Source: Agriterribacter humi
Lineage (GTDB): Bacteria > Bacteroidota > Bacteroidia > Chitinophagales > Chitinophagaceae
Length of the DNA: 64,000 nucleotides
Direction: 5' to 3'
Assembly: GCF_009192765.1 (NCBI RefSeq)
Contig: NZ_VOHQ01000013.1
Span: 1-64,000 of the forward strand
Both the position numbers and the translations under genes were made by a program. Under the pieces are notes generated by a model. The model saw only the letters and a list, made by a program, of their open reading frames with translations, did not search any database and was not told where the DNA came from. Shown piece after piece: positions 3,734 through 39,855 of the stretch (positions are counted from its first letter, which is position 1; every line of letters starts with the position of its first letter).

Positions 3734-4258
3734 TTATCCAGCTATTACAATGGGTGCCCTGGCTTTTCTGTTTATTTCGTATTCAGCCAATTGAGACAAA
3801 CGGTCGTCAATATGCTTTTCATTGATCTCCATTTCATGAAAAACTGTTGCGGACTTTTCCATATTCAGTTCTTTTGCAAAAGCTGCGGCAGTACCATATT
3901 CACTTATTTTAAAATGATTGATAGCCTGTATGCAAGCCAGCAGACAGGCATCTTTAACTTCATTATCTGCGCAATATTTCATCTTTTGATCTGCTTCTTC
4001 CACAAAAGCCTTCATTACTCTGTCGGAAATACTCAGCGAGCTGATCTTTTCTTCTTCCAGGAAGCTTTCCAGCTTTTGCACATGTTGCTGTACAAAACCG
4101 AGGTATTTCTGTAACACCGTTTTTAATTGCAGGGAACCAGCCTGGTTGATCCATTCACCCAGGCTGTGCTTCAACTGTATTTCAGATGCTGTGAATTTGC
4201 TGGCTTCATAATGAAGTAGTTCATGAAGGGTGGCAATAGTGTGGTACTTCTCTTCCAT
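3734..4258 (-). CDS. Ferritin-like DUF892 (YciF-type) protein
   Basis: A 174-residue all-helical protein of the DUF892/YciF ferritin-like family. The expected pattern of Glu and His residues on four helices is visible: LHELLHYEASKFTASEIQL near the N-terminus, AINHFKISEYGTAA in the middle, and FHEMEINEKHIDDRL near the C-terminus, so a di-metal site is plausible. Members are stress-induced in many bacteria; no enzymatic activity is established. It is the first gene of the minus-strand operon that continues through hydrolase, phosphoribosyltransferase, USP and ppsA, and its promoter region holds the paired palindromes at 4311-4349. Confidence 0.9.
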   Translation of the reverse strand: MEEKYHTIATLHELLHYEASKFTASEIQLKHSLGEWINQAGSLQLKTVLQKYLGFVQQHVQKLESFLEEEKISSLSISDRVMKAFVEEADQKMKYCADNEVKDACLLACIQAINHFKISEYGTAAAFAKELNMEKSATVFHEMEINEKHIDDRLSQLAEYEINRKARAPIVIAG

Positions 4259-4310: not shown

Positions 4311-4349
4311 CAATGACCACTGTCAAAACAGGTCTGACAATAGTCATTG
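4311..4349. promoter_or_regulatory. Paired TGAC-N4-GTCA palindromes, probable Crp/Fnr-type operators
   Basis: Between divergent genes there are two copies of TGAC-N4-GTCA, at 4314-4325 (spacer CACT) and 4335-4346 (spacer AATA). Their centres are 21 bp apart, two helical turns. Together they form a larger inverted repeat with 15-bp arms (CAATGACCACTGTCA against CAATGACTATTGTCA read from the other strand; 13 of 15 match). The geometry resembles Crp/Fnr-superfamily sites such as HcpR-type TTGAC-N4-GTCAA. The first centre lies about 61 bp before the DUF892 start and the second about 67 bp before the erythromycin-esterase start. The regulator is not in the window. Confidence 0.6.
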
Positions 4350-4407: not shown

Positions 4408-5745
4408 ATGGGCAGGTATTTCACAAAACATCCCCCTGTAAATGAAAATGAGGTGGTGAGTGCTATTAAGCAACGGAAATATCCGTTAAAAAGTAAGGCT
4501 GATCTGAAACCACTTTTTGATTGCATAGGTGATTCACGGATAGTGATGCTTGGGGAAGCAACCCATGGTACACATGAATATTACCAGTGGCGAACATATA
4601 TTACCCGCAAGCTGATCGAAGAAAAAGGATTCAACTTTATTGCCGTTGAAGGCGATTGGCCCGATTGTTACCGGCTCAACCGTTTTGTGAAGGGCTATGA
4701 TGTGGATAACAAAAGCGCTTTTCACGTATTGCATGCCTTTAACCGCTGGCCTACCTGGATGTGGGCCAATTGGGAAATAATCGCACTCTCCGACTGGCTG
4801 CAGCAACACAACAAGCGATTGCCTGCAAACAGGAAAGCCGGGTTTTACGGGCTGGATGTTTACAGTCTTTGGGAAAGTATGGATAGCATCATGCAATACT
4901 TGAAAAAGACCGATCCTGCTGCTTTGAAAATAGCCGAAGAAGCATTCCGCTGCTTTGAGCCGTACAGGAAGGATGAGGGGCGTTCATACGCACAATCCAC
5001 CCTGTTCGTTCCCGAGGCGTGTCAGCAGGAAGTGATTGAGTTGCTCAAAGAAATCCAACGTAAGCTACCTCAATATAATACCGACCATGAGAATGTTTTT
5101 AACGCCGAACAAAATGCATTGGTCGCGGTGAACGCAGAAAAATATTACCGTGCTATGGTCAAAGGGGGTTCGCATAGCTGGAACGTCCGTGACCGGCATA
5201 TGGGCGATACGCTTGAGCGCCTGCTGGCTTTTCATGGTGAAAACTCAAAGGCAATCGTGTGGGCGCATAATACCCACGTAGGGGATGCCAGGGCAACGGA
5301 CATGACAGACGAAGGCATGTTCAACATAGGCGAACTGGCCCGTTTGCAGCATCACGATAAAGGAGTGGTATTGGTTGGTTTTGGTTCATATAAAGGTACA
5401 GTAACTGCAGGTCGGAACTGGGGCGCTCCAATGCAAACCATGATCATGCCTGAAGCAAGGGAAGGCAGTTGGGAATACCTGTTGCACGAAGCCGGTAAAG
5501 AAAACAAGTTATTACTGATGAAAGATTTTGCAGCTAACGATACGATGATGGAGAATCGCATCGGTCACCGGGCAATCGGGGTAGTATACAATCCGCAATA
5601 TGAGCAATATGGCAATTATGTTCCTACTGTTTTACCGCTTCGCTATGATGCATTTATCTATATAAACGAAACCAGTGCATTGCATCCGCTTCATATAGCG
5701 CCTGATGGGCACCAAATGCCGGAAACTTATCCGTTTGGGATATAA
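4408..5745 (+). CDS. Erythromycin esterase family protein
   Basis: A 445-residue member of the erythromycin-esterase superfamily (EreA/EreB/TIKI-like fold). Visible hallmarks are the early GEATHGTHEYYQWR, VEGDWPDCYRLNRFV, and the later His motif WAHNTHVGDA. The His and Glu residues in these stretches correspond to the proposed catalytic set. Most members outside resistance plasmids do not hydrolyse macrolides and many lie in stress regulons, so a resistance role is not assumed. It is transcribed divergently from the DUF892 operon and shares the paired palindromes upstream. Length and domain order are complete. The actual substrate is unknown. Confidence 0.9.
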   Translation: MGRYFTKHPPVNENEVVSAIKQRKYPLKSKADLKPLFDCIGDSRIVMLGEATHGTHEYYQWRTYITRKLIEEKGFNFIAVEGDWPDCYRLNRFVKGYDVDNKSAFHVLHAFNRWPTWMWANWEIIALSDWLQQHNKRLPANRKAGFYGLDVYSLWESMDSIMQYLKKTDPAALKIAEEAFRCFEPYRKDEGRSYAQSTLFVPEACQQEVIELLKEIQRKLPQYNTDHENVFNAEQNALVAVNAEKYYRAMVKGGSHSWNVRDRHMGDTLERLLAFHGENSKAIVWAHNTHVGDARATDMTDEGMFNIGELARLQHHDKGVVLVGFGSYKGTVTAGRNWGAPMQTMIMPEAREGSWEYLLHEAGKENKLLLMKDFAANDTMMENRIGHRAIGVVYNPQYEQYGNYVPTVLPLRYDAFIYINETSALHPLHIAPDGHQMPETYPFGI

Positions 5746-5971: not shown

Positions 5972-6619
5972 TCAAAAAAAAGACTCATTATGCACGGCCT
6001 GTTGAATCTGAAAAGGCAATCAGTTGTAAACTACTAAAGGTTCCTCAGTAAAGCATCGGATATCATTTAATAAATTGATTCATTTTAGAAATAAATCGTG
6101 CTACAATTTTCTTCGGATATATGGTGAGGTTGTAGTTCCATTTGCAAATCTTTACGGGGTATTCGGCCACCGCCGGCAAATGCTCTGCTGCCTGCTGATG
6201 ATCAGTGCTTTCATGAAGAATAATCCGTTTGCTGAATTGGTTAGGTGTCGTTGGTATAAAAAGTACATCATTTAAAAAGATTGAAGTGCCATTTTAGAAT
6301 CGCTCTGAATAATTTTTCCAATATATTTACCGGTTGGGCCATGCGCCGTTAACCTGCCTGCACACTACTCTTTAAAGGGAAAGTTTCGTCGGAGTTGGAT
6401 CAATATTAGCAAGAACGATCCTGATGGGATTAAATCTCAAGTGGATTAAGCGGCAGGGCGACTTCTTTATGGAACCGCCTATCAATGTGTTAACGATCAA
6501 TGTCTGGTACTTACGCAAGCTATAGTTGTTTTGCTGATCACTATCAAAAAAACGGATGATAAAAGTCAATGCTGGTGATCGGCAACAGAGGTTATTTTGT
6601 GCCTGTAAGAGATAGTTGA
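5972..6619 (+). other. 648-bp stretch without a convincing gene
   Basis: No frame in this stretch carries a recognisable domain. On the plus strand, 6428-6524 can be read as LNLKWIKRQGDFFMEPPINV followed by LTINVWYLRKL and a stop. This has protein-like composition but no start and no family I recognise; it may be the tail of a lost gene. A longer minus-strand frame across 6372-6740 overlaps the desaturase start and is probably chance. The desaturase promoter must lie near the right end. Confidence 0.4.
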
Positions 6620-7738
6620 ATGAAAGACATAAAATTGAATATTGTACGCTTTGCACCCAAAGGTCAAAATAGTTTTTATGATGCTGTCGTAGGAAAGGCA
6701 AAAGCTTATTTTGAAACTCATGGTATTTCGCCTTACGCAAATACAGAAATGTGGATAAAAACGATCGTCATCCTGTTACTGTATTTGGTGCCCTATTTAA
6801 TAATGATCAGTGGACTGGGAGCTGCTAATCCTTGGATATTTTTCGCGTTATGGTTCCTGATGGGGATGGGTATGAGCGGGATTGGAACGGCTATAATGCA
6901 TGACGCTAACCACGGTACATATTCACCCAACAAAAAGGTAAACAATTTTATCAGCCACATCCTTGAGATAATAGGAGGTTATTCAGTCAATTGGAGAATT
7001 CAGCATAATGTTCTGCATCATACATACACCAACGTGGAGGGGCTGGACGAAGATATTGACACCATGGGTTTATTGAGGCTTTCACCCCGGCAGCCATGGC
7101 GCCCCTTATATCGTTACCAGCAAATTTATGCATGGTTTCTGTATATGATAATGACGCTTTTCTGGATGACGGCCAAAGATTATGTACAAATAGTCCGCTA
7201 TAAACGACATGGCTTATTGATTAAGCAAAACATTTCCCTGCCAAAAGCGCTTCGGCGGATCACTGTATCCAAGCTATTTTATTATGCCTACATAATGGCA
7301 ATGCCAATTTTATTCTCGGGTATGCCCTGGTATTTTGTCGTGGCTGGTTTTTTACTGATGCATTTTGCTTCTGGTCTTTTCCTTTCCTGTGTTTTTCAGC
7401 CATCTCATATTATGGAAACTTCAGCTTTTTCCCTGCCGGTGATAACAGATGGAAAGAGCCGGATGGAAGATACCTGGGCCGTGCATGAAGTGGAAAATAC
7501 AACTGATTTTGCTCCCAATAGTCGAATCCTGTCGTGGTTTATAGGCGGATTAAATTACCAGATCGAACATCATTTATTTACCGGCGTTTGCCATGTCCAT
7601 TATAAAAAATTGGCCCCCATCGTCCAATCTACAACAGCAGCCTTTGGATTGCCATATCATGTTCAACCAACTTTCCTGAAAGCAATTTGGGAACATGCAA
7701 GGATGCTGAAAAAGCTTGGATGCAAGCCGGTAAATTGA
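6620..7738 (+). CDS. Membrane fatty acid desaturase
   Basis: A 372-residue integral membrane di-iron desaturase. Three histidine clusters are present: HDANHGTY (HDxxH), HNVLHHTY (HxxHH) and QIEHHLFTGVCHVHY (QIEHHLF type). Hydrophobic segments before the first box and between the second and third boxes (around ILFSGMPWYFVVAGFLLMHF) fit the usual four transmembrane helices. The third box resembles front-end/linoleoyl-CoA-type desaturases. The product introduces a double bond into membrane acyl chains using oxygen and an external electron donor. Its place among stress genes suggests membrane adaptation (inference). Regiospecificity cannot be read from sequence. Confidence 0.92.
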   Translation: MKDIKLNIVRFAPKGQNSFYDAVVGKAKAYFETHGISPYANTEMWIKTIVILLLYLVPYLIMISGLGAANPWIFFALWFLMGMGMSGIGTAIMHDANHGTYSPNKKVNNFISHILEIIGGYSVNWRIQHNVLHHTYTNVEGLDEDIDTMGLLRLSPRQPWRPLYRYQQIYAWFLYMIMTLFWMTAKDYVQIVRYKRHGLLIKQNISLPKALRRITVSKLFYYAYIMAMPILFSGMPWYFVVAGFLLMHFASGLFLSCVFQPSHIMETSAFSLPVITDGKSRMEDTWAVHEVENTTDFAPNSRILSWFIGGLNYQIEHHLFTGVCHVHYKKLAPIVQSTTAAFGLPYHVQPTFLKAIWEHARMLKKLGCKPVN

Positions 7739-10308: not shown

Positions 10309-10755
10309 TTACTTTACAGCAATATGTTTGCTGATGGCTGCTTTTTTTGCCTCTTCTTTTTTGGGTAAAACAAGTTTAAGAATACCATCCTCATATTTTG
10401 CATCAATTTTATCTTTGTTCACTTCATCGGGCAAAGTAAAACTGCGTTCAAAAGAAGAATAACTATATTCTCGGCGGTTGTACCTTATATCTTTCTCTTC
10501 TTTGTTTTCTTCCTTTTCGCAGCTGATGGTGAGCATGTTGCCATCCACATCAATGTGGAAATCATCTTTTTTCAATCCGGGTGCTGCCAGTGAAACCAGG
10601 TAATCATCTTTTTGTTCGGTGATGTTTACTGGCGGGATGTTCATTTCCCTTCCCGCTAAACCGGCGCCATCAAACCAATCGGTGAATGGTGTAAAAAAAT
10701 CATTGAATAATGATGGAAATCGTGTGCCTGTTTTGGCCAATGTTTGTGTTGACAT
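10309..10755 (-). CDS. hsp20: Small heat shock protein Hsp20/alpha-crystallin
   Basis: A 148-residue small heat shock protein: N-terminal arm (FPSLFNDFFTPFTDWFDG), alpha-crystallin domain from about residue 43 to 135 (PPVNITEQKDDYLVSLAAPG through YEDGILKLVLPKK), and a short C-terminal tail with an I-x-V type anchor (HIAV). It is an ATP-independent holdase for unfolding proteins in the cytoplasm. The start is supported by an unusually good Shine-Dalgarno sequence, AAGGAGG, 5 nt before the ATG (10761-10767), rare in this phylum and not seen at the neighbouring starts. A GC hairpin follows the stop. It is the counterpart of the Acr/HspX protein of dormancy regulons. Confidence 0.95.
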   Translation of the reverse strand: MSTQTLAKTGTRFPSLFNDFFTPFTDWFDGAGLAGREMNIPPVNITEQKDDYLVSLAAPGLKKDDFHIDVDGNMLTISCEKEENKEEKDIRYNRREYSYSSFERSFTLPDEVNKDKIDAKYEDGILKLVLPKKEEAKKAAISKHIAVK

Positions 10756-11199: not shown

Positions 11200-11292
11200 A
11201 TATTTTGACCATCATCATACTTACCGCTAATGACTGTCATTGTTACACGTGAATGGAATGAATACCTTCGAAGAGACTTTACAGCAGCAGAT
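11200..11292 (+). repeat. 90-bp dispersed sequence, copy A
   Basis: Starting at TTTTGACCATCATCATACTT, about 92 bases match the stretch at 24046-24138 at roughly four positions in five, in the same orientation. Copy A contains the palindrome AATGACTGTCATT. In both copies a plus-strand ATG follows about 15-20 bases after the repeat, so it may be a shared promoter/5' region rather than a mobile element. Confidence 0.65.
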
Positions 11293-18972: not shown

Positions 18973-19097
18973 ACCAGGTTACATTGATTGAGCATTCCAA
19001 TATCATTTCCCAGGCTGATGAAGATCATTCCTGCTGAATATACAATCATTTATTTTCACTGTTGTTAAGCCGCGACAACTGGTTAAAACACTTTTTT

Positions 19098-21733: not shown

Positions 21734-22057
21734 TTAAACTTCTAAATACTTTGCAACCATATCCAATAGCTCATCTCCCCGAAAGGGCTTGGTAAGGTAA
21801 TCATCTGCTCCGGATGTAATTCCGTTTTTTACTTCAGATTTTTCAGCCCTGGCGGTCAAAAATATAAATGGCATTTTTTGGGTAAAGGTTTCCGTTTTCA
21901 ATTTTTTGAGCACTTCAAATACATTCATATCCGGCATTTCTATATCACATATAATCAGGTCAGGCTTATTCTTAACAGCAACTGCTAACCCTGCTTTTCC
22001 AGTTTTCATGGGTTTATAAAAAAATGAACAGGTGTGCGGCATGTTGATCTTTTTCAT
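21734..22057 (-). pseudogene. Response regulator receiver domain, N-terminal part deleted
   Basis: The 107-codon frame contains the phospho-acceptor LIICDIEMPDMN, the switch Thr in FLTARAEKSE and the Lys in DDYLTKPFRGDE, so it is a CheY-like domain. The start MKKIN is followed directly by unrelated MPHTCSFFYKPMKTGKAGLA; the Asp/Glu pocket that normally follows MKKIL (ILVVEDE type) and helix 1 are missing. About 35 residues appear replaced or deleted. Mg-dependent phosphorylation would be impossible. It follows the histidine kinase remnant by 6 bases. Confidence 0.7.
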
Positions 22058-22063
22058 GCCGTA

Positions 22064-22560
22064 TCATAATCTTAACAAAATTCGCAAATAAGTAGCAAAG
22101 GCCAAATAACCACAATCAGGAAATATAGAAATTGTCATCACTTTTTTGATAGTGTCAGCGCATAAAGAACAATTAGTTTGCACCTGCCGGTTCCGGTGAA
22201 GGGAACTGAATAGTAATATACTTCCTTTATTCAGTTTGCTTGTAAATTGAATTAGCCCACCCATTATATCAAGGTACCTTTTTATGATATACAAACCCAT
22301 CCCGGTACCTTGTATGCCCGGGGAATTATTTGCTCTGAAGAATGTTTGAAAAAGATGAGACTGATCTTCGTCCGGTATGCCCAAACCTTCATCTTTTACA
22401 AAATTCAACAACGTCAAGCTCGTCAATATTATTCCTTATTTTGCCATCCTCAATTTTGCCGAGGGGCAGGAAGTCATTGAGTATATCAGTAAGCGAATGT
22501 ACAGATGCAATTATGCGGTCAACATGTTTCTGTATTTTTTCATTGTTTTAGTAAGTCTTT
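22064..22560 (-). pseudogene. Histidine kinase with internal deletion
   Basis: Upstream frame (about 22389-22545) encodes the second half of a DHp domain: EKIQKHVDRIIASVHSLTDI, LNDFLPLGKIEDGKI, ending DVVEFCKR and a stop. The downstream frame (22064-22426) starts at the same spot with FVKDEGLGIPDEDQSHLFQT (G1 and F boxes) and GTGMGLYIIKRYLDIMGG (G2 box). The N box and the rest of the ATPase N-terminus, roughly 80 residues, are missing and the two halves are out of frame. The phospho-acceptor His region is also absent upstream. It is the decayed partner of the response regulator at 21734. Confidence 0.75.
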
Positions 22561-22604
22561 TGCCGATTTTTTTTTTCATATTCTCTTGTTACGGAATATT
22601 TTTT

Positions 22605-23738
22605 TTAGTATCGTGTGATTAAGACGATTCTGTGATAATTTTTGAGTGCTCCGTTGTCAACAAAAAAAACATGACCATTTTTATTTAAAACTGTTTCGAT
22701 AATATCATCTATGGCATCAGGTAAAATTTTATGTGGTTTTTGCGGAGGACGCAGGTAAAGGTGATCGTCATTGTCTGCCAAAAATCCAGGGATCCTGTAA
22801 TTCTTTTCTACCACTAATTTGAATCCCCTGCCTTCCTGTGCTGCCCTCCAGATGTCCTGAATATCGGTAAGACCGAGGCCTTCGCCAATTTTCTCTTCAA
22901 ATTCCTTTACAACTTTTTTCGATTCGTTTTCAAGGTGAGTACGCATAGCCGGCCAGGCCAGATCAGCCAGTTGTTTTGTGTTATCATAATTATGGCTGCC
23001 GGCAATTGTATCAATAATGTGCTTGTTGTGACTGCTAACCCCCGAAAACAAAGAGAGTTCTTTTTCAACCCCCATTACGATGAGGGGCACATCCTCAGCC
23101 AGGTATGTGCCAATTAGTTTATCCATCTTTCTAAAAAAATCGCTGAACCGGATGGCTTCCAGTTGCGATTTGTCCTTTGCAAAATCTTTTAGATGAGCGT
23201 ACCCGGCAAGGGATGAACTGTGGACGGGTTTTTTGTGCTCATAATCATCTTCATACTTCATCGGGAAATTATTATCCTTTATTTCCAGCAGGTTATCCCA
23301 TTTGCCTTGAAAAAGACGGGCGCCCTGTTCACTTAACACTAAAACAAAATAAGGATTTGTATAATTTACTTTATATAGCAGGTCACGCATTTCAAAACTA
23401 TCCGCCACTATCACTTTTTCATCTACAGCGAAGGGGAATTTCACGGAAAGCTTAAGGTCTGAAGATATATATAAACCGATTCCTTCCTCGTTGTGCATGA
23501 AATCAATGCCCTGGAATAATTCATCCATTGAAGATAGCAATGGCTTTATTTTTTCCTGCCCCGGGTATTTATAGTTCAGTAATTGTTTTGCCTTATCAAC
23601 AGCTTTTTCTATTACTAATATATCTGCTCTTCGCTCAGGTGATCTGCGATGTGCCGGCACAATAATGGAAATACAAATATTTCCTTTAGCATTTTGTAAC
23701 ATGTGCAAATCATCATCTATCAATTTTTCTTTTGACAT
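22605..23738 (-). CDS. Balon-like eRF1-family ribosome hibernation factor (baeRF)
   Basis: A 377-residue protein of the bacterial/archaeal eRF1-like (baeRF) group, the family NCBI names after AOC03_06830 (Balon of Psychrobacter urativorans). Seen are VIVADSFEMRDLLYKVNYTN followed by PYFVLVLSEQGARLFQGKWD (central domain), GYAHLKDFAKDKSQ, VPLIVMGVEKELSLFSGVSS, and a C-terminal eL30-like domain (NKNGHVFFVDNGAL). Balon enters the ribosomal A site with EF-Tu, even during translation, and lacks peptide release activity. A short HPF is encoded 3.2 kb away. Family placement is from memory of motifs; the ribosome role of this copy is inference. Confidence 0.8.
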   Translation of the reverse strand: MSKEKLIDDDLHMLQNAKGNICISIIVPAHRRSPERRADILVIEKAVDKAKQLLNYKYPGQEKIKPLLSSMDELFQGIDFMHNEEGIGLYISSDLKLSVKFPFAVDEKVIVADSFEMRDLLYKVNYTNPYFVLVLSEQGARLFQGKWDNLLEIKDNNFPMKYEDDYEHKKPVHSSSLAGYAHLKDFAKDKSQLEAIRFSDFFRKMDKLIGTYLAEDVPLIVMGVEKELSLFSGVSSHNKHIIDTIAGSHNYDNTKQLADLAWPAMRTHLENESKKVVKEFEEKIGEGLGLTDIQDIWRAAQEGRGFKLVVEKNYRIPGFLADNDDHLYLRPPQKPHKILPDAIDDIIETVLNKNGHVFFVDNGALKNYHRIVLITRY

Positions 23739-23753
23739 ATATTTTTTTAAGTA

Positions 23754-24176
23754 TTAATGGATCGCTTTTGCTTTTCTTTTTTGTTTCCCGGATTTATTTC
23801 TTTTAAATGCTTCAACTGCCTCCCATAATTTTGTATTAAGAATACTATTCTCTGTACACCAGCCACGTCTTGCAACGGAAACACCCAGTTCCATAAACTC
23901 AAACTGGTTCAGCATGTGAGCATCCGTACTGATCGTAATAATCACACCCATTCCAATAGCTTCCTTTACCAAATCATCTTTAAGGTCGAGCCGGTCTGGC
24001 TGCGCATTGATCTCAATAGCTGTTTTGGTTTCCTTAAACCATATTTGACCATCATCATACTTACAGCCAATGACTCTCATTGCTACACATGAATGGAATG
24101 CACATCTTTGAAAAGACTTTCCGGGAGCAGATTCCTGTACGGATAAATAACGGGATGAAAAAAAGAATTTAGTCAA
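23754..24176 (-). pseudogene. polX: C-terminal remnant of DNA polymerase X (PHP domain)
   Basis: Residues from about 48 onward read KETKTAIEINAQPDRLDLKD, IGMGVIITISTDAHMLNQFE, and FMELGVSVARRGWCTENSIL NT, the last third of the PHP phosphoesterase domain found at the C-terminus of bacterial PolX (INxxPxRLDL, SDAH, GxxxARRGW). The polymerase beta-like part and most of PHP are absent. The first 47 codons are simply an antisense reading of repeat copy B, so the fusion start is accidental. A deletion ending in the repeat is the likely cause. Confidence 0.8.
24046..24138 (+). repeat. 90-bp dispersed sequence, copy B
   Basis: ATTTGACCATCATCATACTT onward matches copy A (11200) closely, including ACTTAC, AATGACT, TCATTG, TACAC, TGAATGGAATG and AAGACTTT. 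It is followed on the plus strand by an ATG with a six-codon remnant frame (24156-24173). It abuts the PolX remnant directly. Confidence 0.65.
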
Positions 24177-25025
24177 TTATTTTTCTGCAGGAATAACCAG
24201 TAGCGGGATCTTTATATGATAAGACATTTTCTTTGTCATACTTGGATAAACCAGCCTCTCAAAAAAGCTTCGCTTGTAACTTATCATTGCCAGTAGTTTT
24301 ATGTCATTATTGCTGATGTATTGCTCTATGGTCTTTTCAAATTCATTGCCCGACAAATATTCCGTTACAAGACTTTGATCATGGTAACTATTTTGCAGCT
24401 TCTGCCCATATTCCACCAATTTCTTTAACCTGTCTTTGATTCCGACGGTGTACTCTGCATTTTCGGTAATGAAAAGCAGCACAAACACCTGTGCCATATT
24501 AATGGCAGCCAGTTCAAACAGGGTATCCAGTATCCCGGGCGATCCTTCAAAATGGTTCGTGGTAAACAGGATTTTATCAGGAAGATGTCCATCATATTCC
24601 AAAGGAATGGTCACTACAGGGATTTTACTCGCGCCTATTACTGCAGCTGTGCTGCTTCCCCATAATCTTTCCTTTATACCACCATTCCCTAATGTTCCCA
24701 TTACAATAATATATGCTTTGCTCTGTTCTGATGATTTTATGATATTCTCTTTTACAGACCCTTCATATTGTACGACCGACACTGTGATGCGCTCTGTTTC
24801 TTCAATATTTTTTTTCAACTGGTTTAATTTTTGCAATCTTTCAGTCATCATTGCTGCTTTGAACTCTTTGTTGAGTCCCACGTAATCTGTGTATGTTGAA
24901 CCGGGATGTTCATATACATTCAGAAGCACAATCTCCGCCGCCAGAACTTTAGCCATCTTTACAGAAAAATCAATTGCGTTGCCTGCATAAGGGGAAAAAT
25001 CAATGGGAACCAGTATTCGCTTCAT
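24177..25025 (-). CDS. Universal stress protein, tandem USP domains
   Basis: A 282-residue protein with two USP domains. The first (MKRILVPIDFSPYAGNAIDF) has a complete ATP motif G-2x-G-9x-G-S in MGTLGNGGIKERLWGSSTAA, so it should bind ATP, unlike the copy at 1353 whose last residue is altered. The second domain begins near DKILFTTNHFEGSPGILDTL and ends HIKIPLLVIPAEK, without the ATP motif. Tandem USPs of this architecture are common in Bacteroidota, often several per genome. Genes on both sides are relics, so it is probably its own transcription unit; upstream 25296-25317 contains CCGTCA-N10-TGACGG. Confidence 0.93.
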   Translation of the reverse strand: MKRILVPIDFSPYAGNAIDFSVKMAKVLAAEIVLLNVYEHPGSTYTDYVGLNKEFKAAMMTERLQKLNQLKKNIEETERITVSVVQYEGSVKENIIKSSEQSKAYIIVMGTLGNGGIKERLWGSSTAAVIGASKIPVVTIPLEYDGHLPDKILFTTNHFEGSPGILDTLFELAAINMAQVFVLLFITENAEYTVGIKDRLKKLVEYGQKLQNSYHDQSLVTEYLSGNEFEKTIEQYISNNDIKLLAMISYKRSFFERLVYPSMTKKMSYHIKIPLLVIPAEK

Positions 25026-25339
25026 CGAAATGAATTTTATGAAAATTTAGTTTACCAATTTTAAACGGGGTATTGAAATCGTCTTAAATGCTCCTTCCGT
25101 TTCTGTTATGACATCCCGCTTGCAAATCCCGGCAATAGCTGTCTCCGGCTGCTTTTGGTGAGTCGCTGTTTTAAGGTCTCCTTTCTCTAATACTCCTGCC
25201 AATTGCGAAGACTGCTAATAACGATGTTACCGGCTTCCATAAATTTGGGTTAGACATACAAATTTATTTTGAAGTTATTGATATAAAAATGATAGCCGTC
25301 AATATGAATCGTGACGGTACTCACCAATGGCTGGCATAA
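25026..25339 (-). other. 314-bp stretch between USP and symporter relic
   Basis: There is no intact gene. A minus-strand frame near 25060-25210 reads LEKGDLKTATHQKQPETAIA, then GICKRDVITETEGAFKTISI and PRLKLVN, without a usable start, and may be coding debris of unrecognised origin. An inverted repeat CCGTCA (25296-25301) / TGACGG (25312-25317) lies toward the right end and could be an operator. Confidence 0.35.
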
Positions 25340-25821
25340 TCAACAGATACTCGGTGGTGCAGCTGGAACGGTTAGGCCTTTGGTGCCTCCTGCCAAAAAG
25401 GAAAAAGCGATATGTATGATGATCGCTGATATAATGGAAATCAAAGCCAACCAGTCGCGGCAGGATTTATTGTAACGTCTTTCCGGGAATTCCGGAAGGG
25501 TGGAAACCCCCGAACGGATATAGAAAGGAATAAATAACAAAGCCAATAAAATAAGTACAAAAGCAGTCATCCATTCAAAATTGCCATTCAGCAAACCTGT
25601 ATCAAATCCGCTTTGGGCAAGACTTACAAGATGGATGCATGAAATATTAGTCGCAAACAATGCCAGTCCTATCATCGGCCAGCGCAACGTTTTGCCGGCT
25701 AAAAAATAATTTTCAGCAGACGTGGTTTTCTTCTTTTTTTACCTGCGCCTGCCCAAAGTCCGATCGTTACAATAAACAGGATATAAGCAATCGTGATAAT
25801 GATGTCGGGAGTGCTGACCAT
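25340..25821 (-). pseudogene. Sodium:solute symporter (SSS family), frameshifted and truncated
   Basis: From ATG at 25821 the frame reads MVSTPDIIITIAYILFIVTI GLWAGAGKK and then, after a frame change at an A-run near 25735, SAENYFLAGKTLRWPMIGLA, LFATNISCIHLVSLAQSGFD and FIPFYIRSGVSTLPEFPERR. This is the start of an SGLT-like sodium/sugar symporter (GR-x-ENYFLAGR, NIS, STLPEFxExRY). It ends after about 150 of some 530 residues. It lies 133 bp downstream of the fuconate dehydratase gene on the same strand, so it may have been that operon's transporter. Confidence 0.8.
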
Positions 25822-34521: not shown

Positions 34522-37500
34522 TCAGCGAATCACCGAAATGCCCATTGTTTCGCCGGTTGATAAACGTAAAAAATACATACCTGATGCAAGTCCCTGAACG
34601 GATATTCTTTCAGATGCGCTGGTGAGGCGTCCCTGTTTCACTGTTTTTCCGGAAGCGTCAGCCAGTAGCCAGTTCACTGAACCCTGCGGCTTTTGTTTTA
34701 AGCGAATGAAAAACTCATCTTTTGCCGGGTTAGGAGCAATGGTAATGGCATTTTGTTGCTTGTTTTTAAGCAGTACAATATTTGAGTATTGCCAAATTCC
34801 TGCGCTTTCCTGCCATTTTACACGATACAGATAAGCAGGTGCTTCAATATTTTTATCGTAGAAAGTATACTGCTGTTCACCGGTTGTTGCTGCAAAAGTG
34901 TAGCTGTCTATGGTAGTCCATGCGCCATTATCCGCGTTTTGACGTTCAAGATAATAGTCCATCGTTTCATTATCATTTTCAACTTTCAGTTCGAGCACAT
35001 TCCTGTTGCCGGAAAGATCAGAATGGCCCGCGAAAGACAATAATTCTATTGGCAGGATCACTTCATTGCTTTTAATGAGGGCAATCTCTGCAGGCAAACC
35101 ATCGGCAGGATTAAACTGAACAATAGTTTGGGTTGGTTCTGCTGATATTACGTTGGCATATTTTGAAGGTATACCGGGGAGCTTTGACCATTTGCCATAG
35201 AGTGTTAAGGTAATGGGAACTGCTGTGCTTACATTATTCACCAGGTTTAAATCAGGGTTCACCAGTGAAATACGAAGGGTGTCAATATTTACCTGCATCG
35301 TGGCAACACAGGGCACATCATTGCCTTTTAAAATATCATTGGAAACCAGGTTGTCATTGGGTAAAAAAAGACTGAAGCCGGTAACCCCGCTTGCGTTTTC
35401 GCGGATGATATGAGCGGCTGTATCCAGCTGCAGGATATCAAAAGCACGGGTAGATGAAGACTGCATATCAGCGGCAAAGGCAGTCATATCATTCTCAGTA
35501 GTATTGGGTGCAATAACATATGCATACTTAGCACTTGCCGGTGCATTGCCGTGATCGATAAACGCATTGGCAAAATTAGCCGTAGTAGTGGCGCCTGAAC
35601 CCGATTGGTCGGGACTGGTTTGCGATTGCCTTTCTACATGTATGGTATTGCCCGGTAAAACATAGTAACCTGTTTTATAGGCATCAATAAGCCAGTGAGG
35701 GCTGGCTTTGTCAAGATTCTCCGACTGGGAAACCCCTGTTTTTGAAGCGCCATCTACTACCGTTGGTGTTCCGGTAGAAGATAAAGCACCCTGGAACAGA
35801 GTGGTAATGGTTTTATTGGCGTCATCGTTGTTGTTGATATTGCTGCCGAGGCAAACGATCTTATCACCAAAGCAAAAGAAGGATTTGCGGAAAATAAAGC
35901 TTGGGTTATGGGTAGCTGTAGCGGCTGTTTGCTTAAAATTTAATCCAAACATGCCGTAATCACCATGCAGGTCAGCCAGGATGACATCAGATGGTGCATT
36001 GGGTGCAGGTATTCCAAACTTCACTCCGCCGGCAAAATTGTAGGCATTTTTTTCTGCGAGGTAAGATACCGAGGCCGGCGCCATCAGTTGGGAAAAGGGC
36101 AGGATAATAGTGGTTGCTCCCGGTACTTTATTCCAGTCCCAGCCGGTAGCCGTTAAGCCACTCGCGGCAAGCCCTCCGGGATACATAATTTCAAGGGCGC
36201 CGTAGCTCTGATATCTCCCATAGCGATTGGCGCCGGTAGAGATTTCTGTTCCCCAGAAATAATTGTTAATGCCTTTTATGGTGGCTGCCCAATTATCTTT
36301 TCTGTGCATCGCCAGGGGGCTGTAGTTCATTTGCCAGAAGCCTGAAGGAAAAGGCTCTGCCGGAACGCCTGAAGGCGGTCTGTCTATTCCATATATCCGG
36401 GTGCGCATGCCTGCAACGATAGGATCAATGGAGGTATTCAGGATTTCGCCCCCAATTTGTGCCATCCTGGTAAAGAACCCACCCGAAAAGGTAATAGGAG
36501 AGAAAAAAGTATGCCTGCCGGTAAGGCTATTGGCAAATTGAATGGTATTGCACATTAAATACTGTGCATATACTACTTTTCTTAAATTTTCATATGCTTC
36601 GGCATCTATCAGAAAGTCAGTACCCCTGAATGTATACAGTACCGGATCAATAATGGCCTGAAAAGAATACGCGTACGAATTGTAATGCCCATAATGATGA
36701 AAGGTGGTTCCATCGGGCTTCATGCCATCGGTGTTTCCCTTTTGATTTTTTAAAAACCTTTCGATGTACAATTTAAGGCGCTGAAGGTCCTGAACGGCAT
36801 GAGCATCATCCGGGCTAAATAAAATAACGCACAAAAAGGCGTCCTGCAATACATAAAGGTTGTCTTCATCAAAAAGCCCATCTGAATTTTCATTCCAGCC
36901 CATATTTATGCCCATGCTCCATTTCAACCAATCCCATATCTTATATCTTAAATCTTCATCAATAAAATCTTCGGCATTAATCAGAGCCTTGTAAAAAAGC
37001 ATGTCATCATAGCCCCACGAATTTCCGGCAAACCACCTGCCGCTGCCGGCCGCAATACCGTTATCCAGCATCAGCTTCAGAATATTAATTGCTTTATCCC
37101 TGCTATCGGTATTGTTGTTGTGTATATAGCTCCTGGTAAAAACGGCGAACATGGTATCAATCTCCGATAAATCGGAAATGTCTTTTCCTTTAATGAGGTT
37201 TCCGTCAGGCACTATGTTGTAAGTGGCGTACAGGGCATTGGCATCACTTAATTCCGAAGCAGAAGGTGCTGTTCCCCTGTCAATAACTTTAATGCGTCCA
37301 CGAATAAGGTTCAGATCATCTACCTCTTTTGCGGTAGGCTGGCTCAATGGGATCGTTGGCGTAAGTGTATCCAGTTGGTGAAAAAAATCGCTGGAATAAT
37401 ATGGCTCAGTGGCCAATGCAGATAAATCGGGCATTTGCCTGTCGGCATACTTCATCTCAGAAGTTCGCATGTACTGCATATTATCAATGAATATAGTGCC

Positions 37501-38085
37501 ACTACCCGATAGCGGTGCAAGGATATGAATCTGCACTACATTCCACCAGTATGGATCATACGTTACAAGCTCTTTTATCATATCGTGACGATAGCTGCGC
37601 TGCAGTTTCCTCCACCCTTCATAATTGATGTTAAACCGGAACCGGAATTGATAAATATCCCGTTTACTCAGGAATTTCACATCGAATGTATCGGGAGATG
37701 GGGTTTCATTGTGCGCCCACATCTCGAAATGATTCTGGCCCCAAACCAGCAAATTTGCATTAATGTATTGTTGTTCCCCGGCACTAAGCTCAATAACAAG
37801 CGTATCGCCTGCCGTCCAGTCCCATTGTAAAGATTGGGTTCCCAGGCGGTAATGCCGGTCACTTATGGAAAGTGTACCCTTTTTTGCCGTGTAATTTGAT
37901 GGTACGGCCCCTTCCAGGTCGGGCTGCGCATAACCAACTGTGCATGTTAATAATATTGCCAGTGCTGTAAGAATAATTTTATTTATTCGCAGGCTGGCAT
38001 AGCGGATTTTGTGTAATGGCAATATTTTTTCTGTTGCAGATCTTTTTAAAAAGCAGCAATAAGGTTTAAGGTTAATTTTTTGCAT
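34522..38085 (-). CDS. Secreted polysaccharide lyase family 8 (chondroitin ABC lyase-like) with T9SS sorting domain
   Basis: A 1187-residue secreted enzyme. After a signal peptide ending LTCTVGYAQ (the N-terminus is long; the real start may be internal) comes a lyase N-domain (NYTAKKGTLSISDRHYRLGT, QSLQWDWTAGDTL), a helical catalytic toroid with NSWGYDDMLFYKALINAEDF and the catalytic-type segment MKPDGTTFHHYGHYNSYAYS, a beta-sandwich part, and a type A T9SS C-terminal domain (APNPAKDEFFIRL ... GLASGMYFLRLSTG). Arrangement fits chondroitin sulfate ABC lyases, which eliminate uronic acid linkages in glycosaminoglycans. It stands alone, without SusC/SusD or sulfatase genes. Exact substrate is uncertain. 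Confidence 0.88.
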   Translation of the reverse strand: MQKINLKPYCCFLKRSATEKILPLHKIRYASLRINKIILTALAILLTCTVGYAQPDLEGAVPSNYTAKKGTLSISDRHYRLGTQSLQWDWTAGDTLVIELSAGEQQYINANLLVWGQNHFEMWAHNETPSPDTFDVKFLSKRDIYQFRFRFNINYEGWRKLQRSYRHDMIKELVTYDPYWWNVVQIHILAPLSGSGTIFIDNMQYMRTSEMKYADRQMPDLSALATEPYYSSDFFHQLDTLTPTIPLSQPTAKEVDDLNLIRGRIKVIDRGTAPSASELSDANALYATYNIVPDGNLIKGKDISDLSEIDTMFAVFTRSYIHNNNTDSRDKAINILKLMLDNGIAAGSGRWFAGNSWGYDDMLFYKALINAEDFIDEDLRYKIWDWLKWSMGINMGWNENSDGLFDEDNLYVLQDAFLCVILFSPDDAHAVQDLQRLKLYIERFLKNQKGNTDGMKPDGTTFHHYGHYNSYAYSFQAIIDPVLYTFRGTDFLIDAEAYENLRKVVYAQYLMCNTIQFANSLTGRHTFFSPITFSGGFFTRMAQIGGEILNTSIDPIVAGMRTRIYGIDRPPSGVPAEPFPSGFWQMNYSPLAMHRKDNWAATIKGINNYFWGTEISTGANRYGRYQSYGALEIMYPGGLAASGLTATGWDWNKVPGATTIILPFSQLMAPASVSYLAEKNAYNFAGGVKFGIPAPNAPSDVILADLHGDYGMFGLNFKQTAATATHNPSFIFRKSFFCFGDKIVCLGSNINNNDDANKTITTLFQGALSSTGTPTVVDGASKTGVSQSENLDKASPHWLIDAYKTGYYVLPGNTIHVERQSQTSPDQSGSGATTTANFANAFIDHGNAPASAKYAYVIAPNTTENDMTAFAADMQSSSTRAFDILQLDTAAHIIRENASGVTGFSLFLPNDNLVSNDILKGNDVPCVATMQVNIDTLRISLVNPDLNLVNNVSTAVPITLTLYGKWSKLPGIPSKYANVISAEPTQTIVQFNPADGLPAEIALIKSNEVILPIELLSFAGHSDLSGNRNVLELKVENDNETMDYYLERQNADNGAWTTIDSYTFAATTGEQQYTFYDKNIEAPAYLYRVKWQESAGIWQYSNIVLLKNKQQNAITIAPNPAKDEFFIRLKQKPQGSVNWLLADASGKTVKQGRLTSASERISVQGLASGMYFLRLSTGETMGISVIR

Positions 38086-39844: not shown

Positions 39845-39855
39845 TCTGATCTTTA

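Follow-up and report, generated by a model that had tools for sequence, protein, structure and literature searches.

Whether a Balon-like factor and an HPF encoded a few kilobases apart in a member of the Bacteroidota belong to one hibernation module, and whether they are then held together by position or by regulation, is the question raised by this locus. Balon has been described in Psychrobacter and mycobacteria, and its trigger elsewhere is little known. The DNA that we analysed (hereafter the window) comprises 64,000 nucleotides of Agriterribacter humi. Its first-pass annotation had proposed a 377-residue protein of the Balon (AOC03_06830) family with a short HPF 3.2 kb away, and had taken this genomic link as support for a dual hibernation module. 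The features on which our reading depends are collected in Table 1.

Table 1. Genes, gene remnants and palindromic boxes of the window that bear on the Balon-HPF question.
Feature	Position	Strand	Remarks
Two exact palindromes 21 bp apart	4314-4346	.	Between DUF892 (3734-4258, -) and erythromycin-esterase-like (4408-5745, +) genes
Tandem box, 0 mismatches	6535-6568	.	Upstream of fatty-acid desaturase gene (6620-7738, Pfam)
Tandem box, 1 mismatch	11206-11239	.	Between Hsp20 (10309-10755, -) and acetate-CoA ligase/dehydrogenase gene run (11525 on, +)
Single exact palindrome TGATGAAGATCA	19016-19027	.	Upstream of HPF; degenerate tandem partner, pair with 3 mismatches
Short accessory HPF, 110 aa	19098-19430	+	PF02482; without long C-terminal domain
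Response regulator remnant (receiver piece)	21734-22057	-	Without CRP part; intact REC-CRP neighbours 348-367 aa
Sensor histidine kinase remnant (HATPase_c piece)	22064-22426	-	Relatives beside orthologues 404-543 aa
Balon-like hibernation factor (baeRF family 3), 377 aa	22605-23738	-	Profile, PDB sequence and fold matches
Remnant ORF between Usp and Balon	23754-24176	-	Resembles end of 485-579 aa protein in relatives; no Pfam family
Universal stress protein (Usp)	24177-25025	-	PF00582, 112.7 bits; upstream of Balon gene, same strand
Tandem box, 1 mismatch	25290-25323	.	Upstream of Usp, then Balon
SSF transporter piece	25340-25687		Gene remnant

The first step concerns the identity of the protein. 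Its reading frame is intact over all 377 codons, and the product passes the Pfam model PF18845 (baeRF_family3) with 131.8 bits against a cut-off of 31.5 as well as, with weaker scores, the models of baeRF families 7, 6, 8 and 11. The NCBIfam model NF052287 (AOC03_06830_fam_RHF) is matched from end to end (model positions 1-361 of 361) with 278 bits, a score under the curated cut-off of 330, and we therefore call the protein Balon-like without assigning it to NCBI's Balon equivalog. Among PDB sequences, phmmer returned a single match at E<=10, namely Balon itself (8rd8_B, E 5e-23, query residues 11-377). A structure model built from 6 sequences (pLDDT 80.4, pTM 0.70) was best matched in VIA-align by the same Balon chain (Z 32.6, 344 residues, 3.5 A), followed by Msmeg1130 (Z 28.5 and 26.7) and Rv2629 (22.6), with archaeal aRF1 ranking lower (Z 17.3); in Foldseek, Balon and Msmeg1130 occupied the first five places. 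At the level of the predicted structure, this confirms the gene product as a three-domain eRF1-like protein. The family assignment made in the first pass thus holds, save for the equivalog cut-off, and so does the eRF1/Pelota-like architecture, with no other family giving the best profile matches.

The gene is not the only one of its kind in the genome, which holds three Balon-family matches (278, 205 and 148 bits) and three HPF matches; only the Balon and HPF genes of the window share one contig. Among 294 sampled genomes of the same family, an orthologue at E<1e-50 was found in 18 others (29-61% identity), so the gene is patchily distributed. Balon genes often occur in 2-4 copies, most often adjoining RaiA (Helena-Bueno 2024, PMC10901736).

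As for the HPF, the proposed short gene is indeed present, at a distance of about 3.2 kb from Balon; its product passes PF02482 (36.3 bits, cut-off 23.7) and falls short of the NCBIfam equivalog TIGR00741 (26.9 bits, cut-off 40.9). The two genes are read from opposite strands and are separated by genes for a short-chain dehydrogenase and a nitroreductase and by two regulator remnants, which rules out an HPF-Balon operon. In 4/19 genomes (G000, which is the window's own, G252, G255 and G295), the orthologue has an HPF no more than 5 kb away, as compared with 0.08 expected under uniform placement, an expectation that ignores contig breaks and includes the window's genome although it was picked for its HPF link; with that genome left out, the count is 3/18. 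In an earlier sample of 58 genomes, 21 of them with a Balon match and many of them fragmented assemblies, an HPF was near a Balon-family gene in none of the 20 other genomes with a match. Close linkage as a general rule was consequently rejected. The idea of a genomically linked dual hibernation module survives in part, then: proximity exceeds chance within the orthologue clade and was found in none of the 20 other genomes of the earlier sample. Since Balon/baeRF-HPF neighbourhoods were published in 2019 and 2024, first by Burroughs and Aravind (PMC6514570), who report them as conserved, and then in PMC10901736, the link itself is real but not new.

It could be asked whether the tendency of stress genes to collect in islands is all that brings HPF and Balon together, with no joint function. 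Gene clustering with Pfam scans over 19 orthologue loci and the window gave as recurring neighbours a response regulator (9/20), a histidine kinase (8/20), Hsp20 (6/20) and a BON protein (5/20), together with Usp, GroEL-like, phosphoribosyltransferase and nitroreductase clusters at 4/20 loci each. The low frequency of close HPF genes in the two samples above fits such a purely spatial association. Against it stands a regulatory box, described below, that also precedes accessory HPF genes far from Balon (for instance on contig C23 of the window's own genome and in G195 and G162), and we consider a shared address without shared function unlikely. The connection between Balon and HPF is better supported by this common box than by proximity.

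The box consists of two copies of the palindrome TGAY-N4-RTCA spaced 22 bp start to start, that is, two helical turns. The palindrome was first noticed by eye in the upstream regions of the orthologues, which were also the set first counted; the sets independent of that observation are 33 other Balon-family genes, whole-genome scans, HPF upstream regions and REC-CRP neighbourhoods. In the 300 bp upstream of the orthologues, 22 exact palindromes occur in 14/19 regions at spacer 4 and 0 or 1 at other spacers, with Markov shuffles of the 19 regions averaging 0.5 and none of 2000 exceeding 4. Upstream of the 33 other Balon-family genes, which had played no part in seeing the motif, spacer 4 yields 16 palindromes, the other spacers giving 0-3. 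Tandem pairs at 22 bp with <=1 mismatch were found in 25/52 Balon upstream regions (24/52 before one region was re-cut), while each other pair spacing from 12 to 44 was found in 0-2 of the 52 (counted before the re-cut). With <=2 mismatches allowed, the number rises to 31/52 (30 before the re-cut), for which shuffles gave a mean of 0.06 and a maximum of 2 in 200. One pair with 1 mismatch precedes the gene at L021, and none was found within the 99 bp of sequence upstream of the gene at L022. The 21/52 regions with no pair at <=2 mismatches include that of L010, whose Balon has the top score within the same genus.

A comparison among HPF genes is informative as to which copies carry the box. We took all 33 HPF matches from 18 genomes with an orthologue, with 500 bp upstream of each, and defined the main HPF as the best-scoring one per genome. 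None of the 18 main genes has a pair at <=2 mismatches, whereas 8/15 accessory genes do (4/15 at <=1 mismatch; 0-2 at other spacings; Fisher 4.6e-4 for the contrast). The window's own genome is a case in point, with an HPF on contig C12 without a pair, one on C23 with a pair at 1 mismatch, and the window HPF with its one exact palindrome. The C12 gene (L103:3409-3801), the genome's best-scoring HPF match, lies directly upstream of another gene (L103:4939-6126), which we take to encode EF-Tu. In G295 the HPF and Balon genes diverge, with two pairs in the space that separates them. In G255 (L071:6602-10395), exact tandem boxes precede both an HPF gene and a second HPF-like gene, the two lying within 3 kb of the Balon orthologue; the second is known only by its similarity to the window HPF and has no Pfam match.

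Within the window there are 11 palindromes against 3.9 expected, a number that none of 100 shuffles reaches. The palindrome at 24046, which falls within the coding sequence of a remnant, was treated as chance, and those at 39847, 54401 and 63463 lie outside the island. No box was found within 300 bp of the start of the window's Balon gene, which would consequently be read from the Usp promoter. Such cotranscription, which has to be assumed, would span about 440 bp including a gene remnant. In a promoter/terminator scan, to which we give no weight, the counts were near those of its shuffles and the stretch from Usp to Balon held no terminator-like site. The same order of Usp then Balon, with a pair before Usp, recurs at L071 of G255. 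Across the whole genome of the window, 14 places carry a pair at <=1 mismatch, as compared with 1 in the reversed control. Pairs with 1 mismatch stand before the Balon copies on C1 and C7, the Usp-Balon unit and the C23 HPF; further pairs at <=1 mismatch are found at another Usp, next to nosZ and upstream of a gene for glutamyl-tRNA reductase. The nosZ gene (G000:C32:83689-85683, or L101:689-2683) encodes a Sec-dependent nitrous-oxide reductase (TIGR04246, 953 bits, cut-off 625) and is accompanied by a cytochrome c gene, with the box alongside.

What might bind the box? The candidate is a fusion protein, exemplified at L077, of a receiver, a cNMP-binding domain and a Crp-type helix-turn-helix (HTH_Crp_2), adjoining a PAS kinase. 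The window's own genome has an intact PAS kinase and REC-CRP pair at C1:10073-13118 (L098); the C1 Balon copy is 16 kb away, and the pair shares its island with genes for a P-type ATPase, PfkB, BON, Hsp20, OsmC, DUF302, an alcohol dehydrogenase, a pyridoxamine-oxidase-like protein and Usp. In 6/19 genomes (0.17 expected under the same uniform placement), the orthologue has an intact REC-CRP no more than 10 kb away, and the regulator is present in 19/19 orthologue genomes and in 23/28 other genomes with Balon-family genes. Sixteen genomes with REC-CRP contain 358 pairs at <=1 mismatch, or 4.65 per Mb, with 6 in the reversed control. Furthermore, 80 REC-CRP neighbourhoods, mostly from Chitinophagaceae and other Bacteroidota, contain 109 pairs in 60 loci and 0-8 at other spacings. 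These associations suggest that REC-CRP binds the tandem box.

A different protein of the CRP/FNR family, of FNR or DNR type, could also be imagined as the binder, with REC-CRP merely residing in the same islands. The palindrome does lie in the general CRP/FNR register, TGA-N6-TCA; the genes for nosZ and glutamyl-tRNA reductase, at which boxes were found, are classical targets of FNR/DNR-type regulators; and 8 boxes occur in G011, a fragmented assembly of 800 contigs in which no REC-CRP was matched. However, the boxes crowd at REC-CRP genes, both in the 80 neighbourhoods and in three genomes where 14/67 listed pairs lie within 10 kb of such a gene (0.57 expected; 29 of the 31 boxes of G303 were included), and four genomes without REC-CRP together hold only 4 pairs at <=1 mismatch in 13.1 Mb. 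A real box with another binder is accordingly an improbable reading to us. The box also differs from those of FNR, FixK and CRP, with which it shares its register (TTGAY-N4-RTCAA for FNR/FixK), by its strict 22-bp tandem arrangement and its link to a receiver-CRP protein.

The explanation that we favour, and hold to be probable, is that a two-component, FNR-like stress regulon deploys a catalytically unfit Balon-like factor together with an accessory HPF, Usp and Hsp20. The PAS histidine kinase would activate the receiver-CRP fusion, which would bind two TGAY-N4-RTCA palindromes 22 bp apart and jointly turn on Balon, accessory HPF, Usp, Hsp20 and metabolic genes. Under stress the Balon-like protein would enter and block the ribosomal A site, probably together with EF-Tu-GDP, and the 30S decoding channel would be blocked by HPF; a single ribosome can carry both Balon and RaiA in Psychrobacter (PMC10901736). 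In the window, Usp and then Balon would be governed by one box, and the nearby HPF by its own palindrome. The signal may be low oxygen or a related stress, judging by the nosZ, glutamyl-tRNA reductase and desaturase genes and the DosR-like gene content. This leads us to the points that speak against the regulon: the window's box precedes Usp and not Balon, so that cotranscription has to be assumed, and the window's sensor and regulator genes are remnants, the intact pair being on another contig. Further such points are the window HPF, with one exact palindrome only, the 21/52 Balon regions that lack a pair, and the boxes of G011. A tight physical link is likewise disfavoured by the 80 REC-CRP neighbourhoods, in which Balon occurs in 1 and HPF in none.

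Does the protein itself fit the role of a hibernation factor? Compared with Balon (AOC03_06830 of Psychrobacter urativorans; 8rd8, 8rdv, 8rdw), it shows full-length homology at 23% identity with the same three-domain fold. In an alignment that included Balon and 22 relatives, its N-terminal loop reads HRRSP where that of Balon, whose HP motif is assigned to the decoding centre, reads HREHP, so that the proline is kept and the His-Pro pair is replaced by Ser-Pro; the C1 and C7 copies of the same genome have lost the loop and read PFKPV and PFEPV. The clade also shares a conserved middle-domain loop that has KDKS at its end, is longer than in Balon and was modelled with low confidence (residues 165-186); it may be placed where eRF1 carries GGQ. 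Neither GGQ nor NIKS is present in the translation, which agrees with Balon, where both motifs are likewise missing and HPF/RaiA is likewise the genomic companion (PMC10901736). By analogy with Balon, the protein may bind the A site with EF-Tu-GDP. The mycobacterial proteins Msmeg1130 and Rv2629 are alike in fold (Z 28.5-22.6) but share only 12-13% identity, and their family model NF052288 gives 23 bits against a cut-off of 480.

One could alternatively see in the protein a ribosome rescue or translation-termination-like factor that resides in stress islands for that reason. Its predicted eRF1/Pelota fold would suit such a function, and rescue roles for baeRF proteins are also proposed by Burroughs and Aravind (PMC6514570). 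On the other hand, the nearest solved folds are the ribosome complexes of Balon, Msmeg1130 and Rv2629, the GGQ motif is missing, and the same box stands at accessory HPF genes, so that we regard a rescue factor as distinctly less plausible than a hibernation factor, and improbable in itself.

The immediate surroundings of the gene deserve a separate comment. From 21734 to 25687, adjoining remnants (SSF transporter, kinase, receiver and the ORF at 23754-24176, whose longer relatives we take to be PolX/PHP proteins) lie around the intact Balon gene, pointing to a stretch that is eroding or has been rearranged. That the Balon copy is itself a relic that no longer works is very unlikely despite the remnants on both sides of it, as the frame is complete and in register with orthologues that share 34-61% identity over its full length. 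Elsewhere in the window, the gene at 34522-38085 encodes a 1187-aa member of polysaccharide lyase family 8 that carries a Por secretion tail.

The favoured regulon invites comparison with mycobacteria, in which Balon homologues are hypoxia-induced (PMC10901736) and, according to PMC10799931, RafH, one of two HPFs, is under DosR. Both systems would combine one two-component system with a regulon HPF beside a housekeeping HPF, Usp and Hsp20. P-type ATPase, PfkB and nitroreductase genes, found here too, recall DosR members. DosR is a LuxR/NarL-type regulator, whereas the candidate here joins a receiver to a CRP-type helix-turn-helix, and the DNA box is different. Because the candidate carries HTH_Crp_2, the regulon would work like the DosR regulon but is not one; we see the parallel as one of function and claim no homology of regulons.

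Among the openly licensed papers listed for Bacteroidota FNR/REC-CRP regulons, hibernation, baeRF and Balon, we found none describing the tandem box or its regulon, and the regulatory box common to Balon and accessory HPF genes is what seems to be new. If the explanation is true, the box before Balon and accessory HPF offers a directly testable hibernation switch in environmental Bacteroidota, a dormancy programme resembling that of DosR has arisen under another regulator, and box searches could predict which HPF and Balon copies serve dormancy. Our results suggest that the whole ribosome-storage kit is switched on jointly in these bacteria, possibly by oxygen shortage. A bolder extension, which we offer tentatively and rate as somewhat more likely to fail than to hold, is that Chitinophagaceae-like Bacteroidota keep a second hibernation set, made of divergent Balons and accessory HPFs, under one REC-CRP system acting through the strict tandem box, with the housekeeping HPF outside it; the Balon copies, which have diverged in their decoding-centre loop (the window copy retains HRxxP, C1 and C7 have lost it), may then serve different ribosome states.

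As to how far the box extends, exact pairs occur in 20 of 148 genomes of the phylum, 17/37 in the window's class and 3/111 in others, with none in the reversed control. G417, from another family of the same class, has 13 exact tandem boxes; a single contig holds six of these in a span of some 27 kb (C43:81424-108101), a cluster that looks like a large regulon island.
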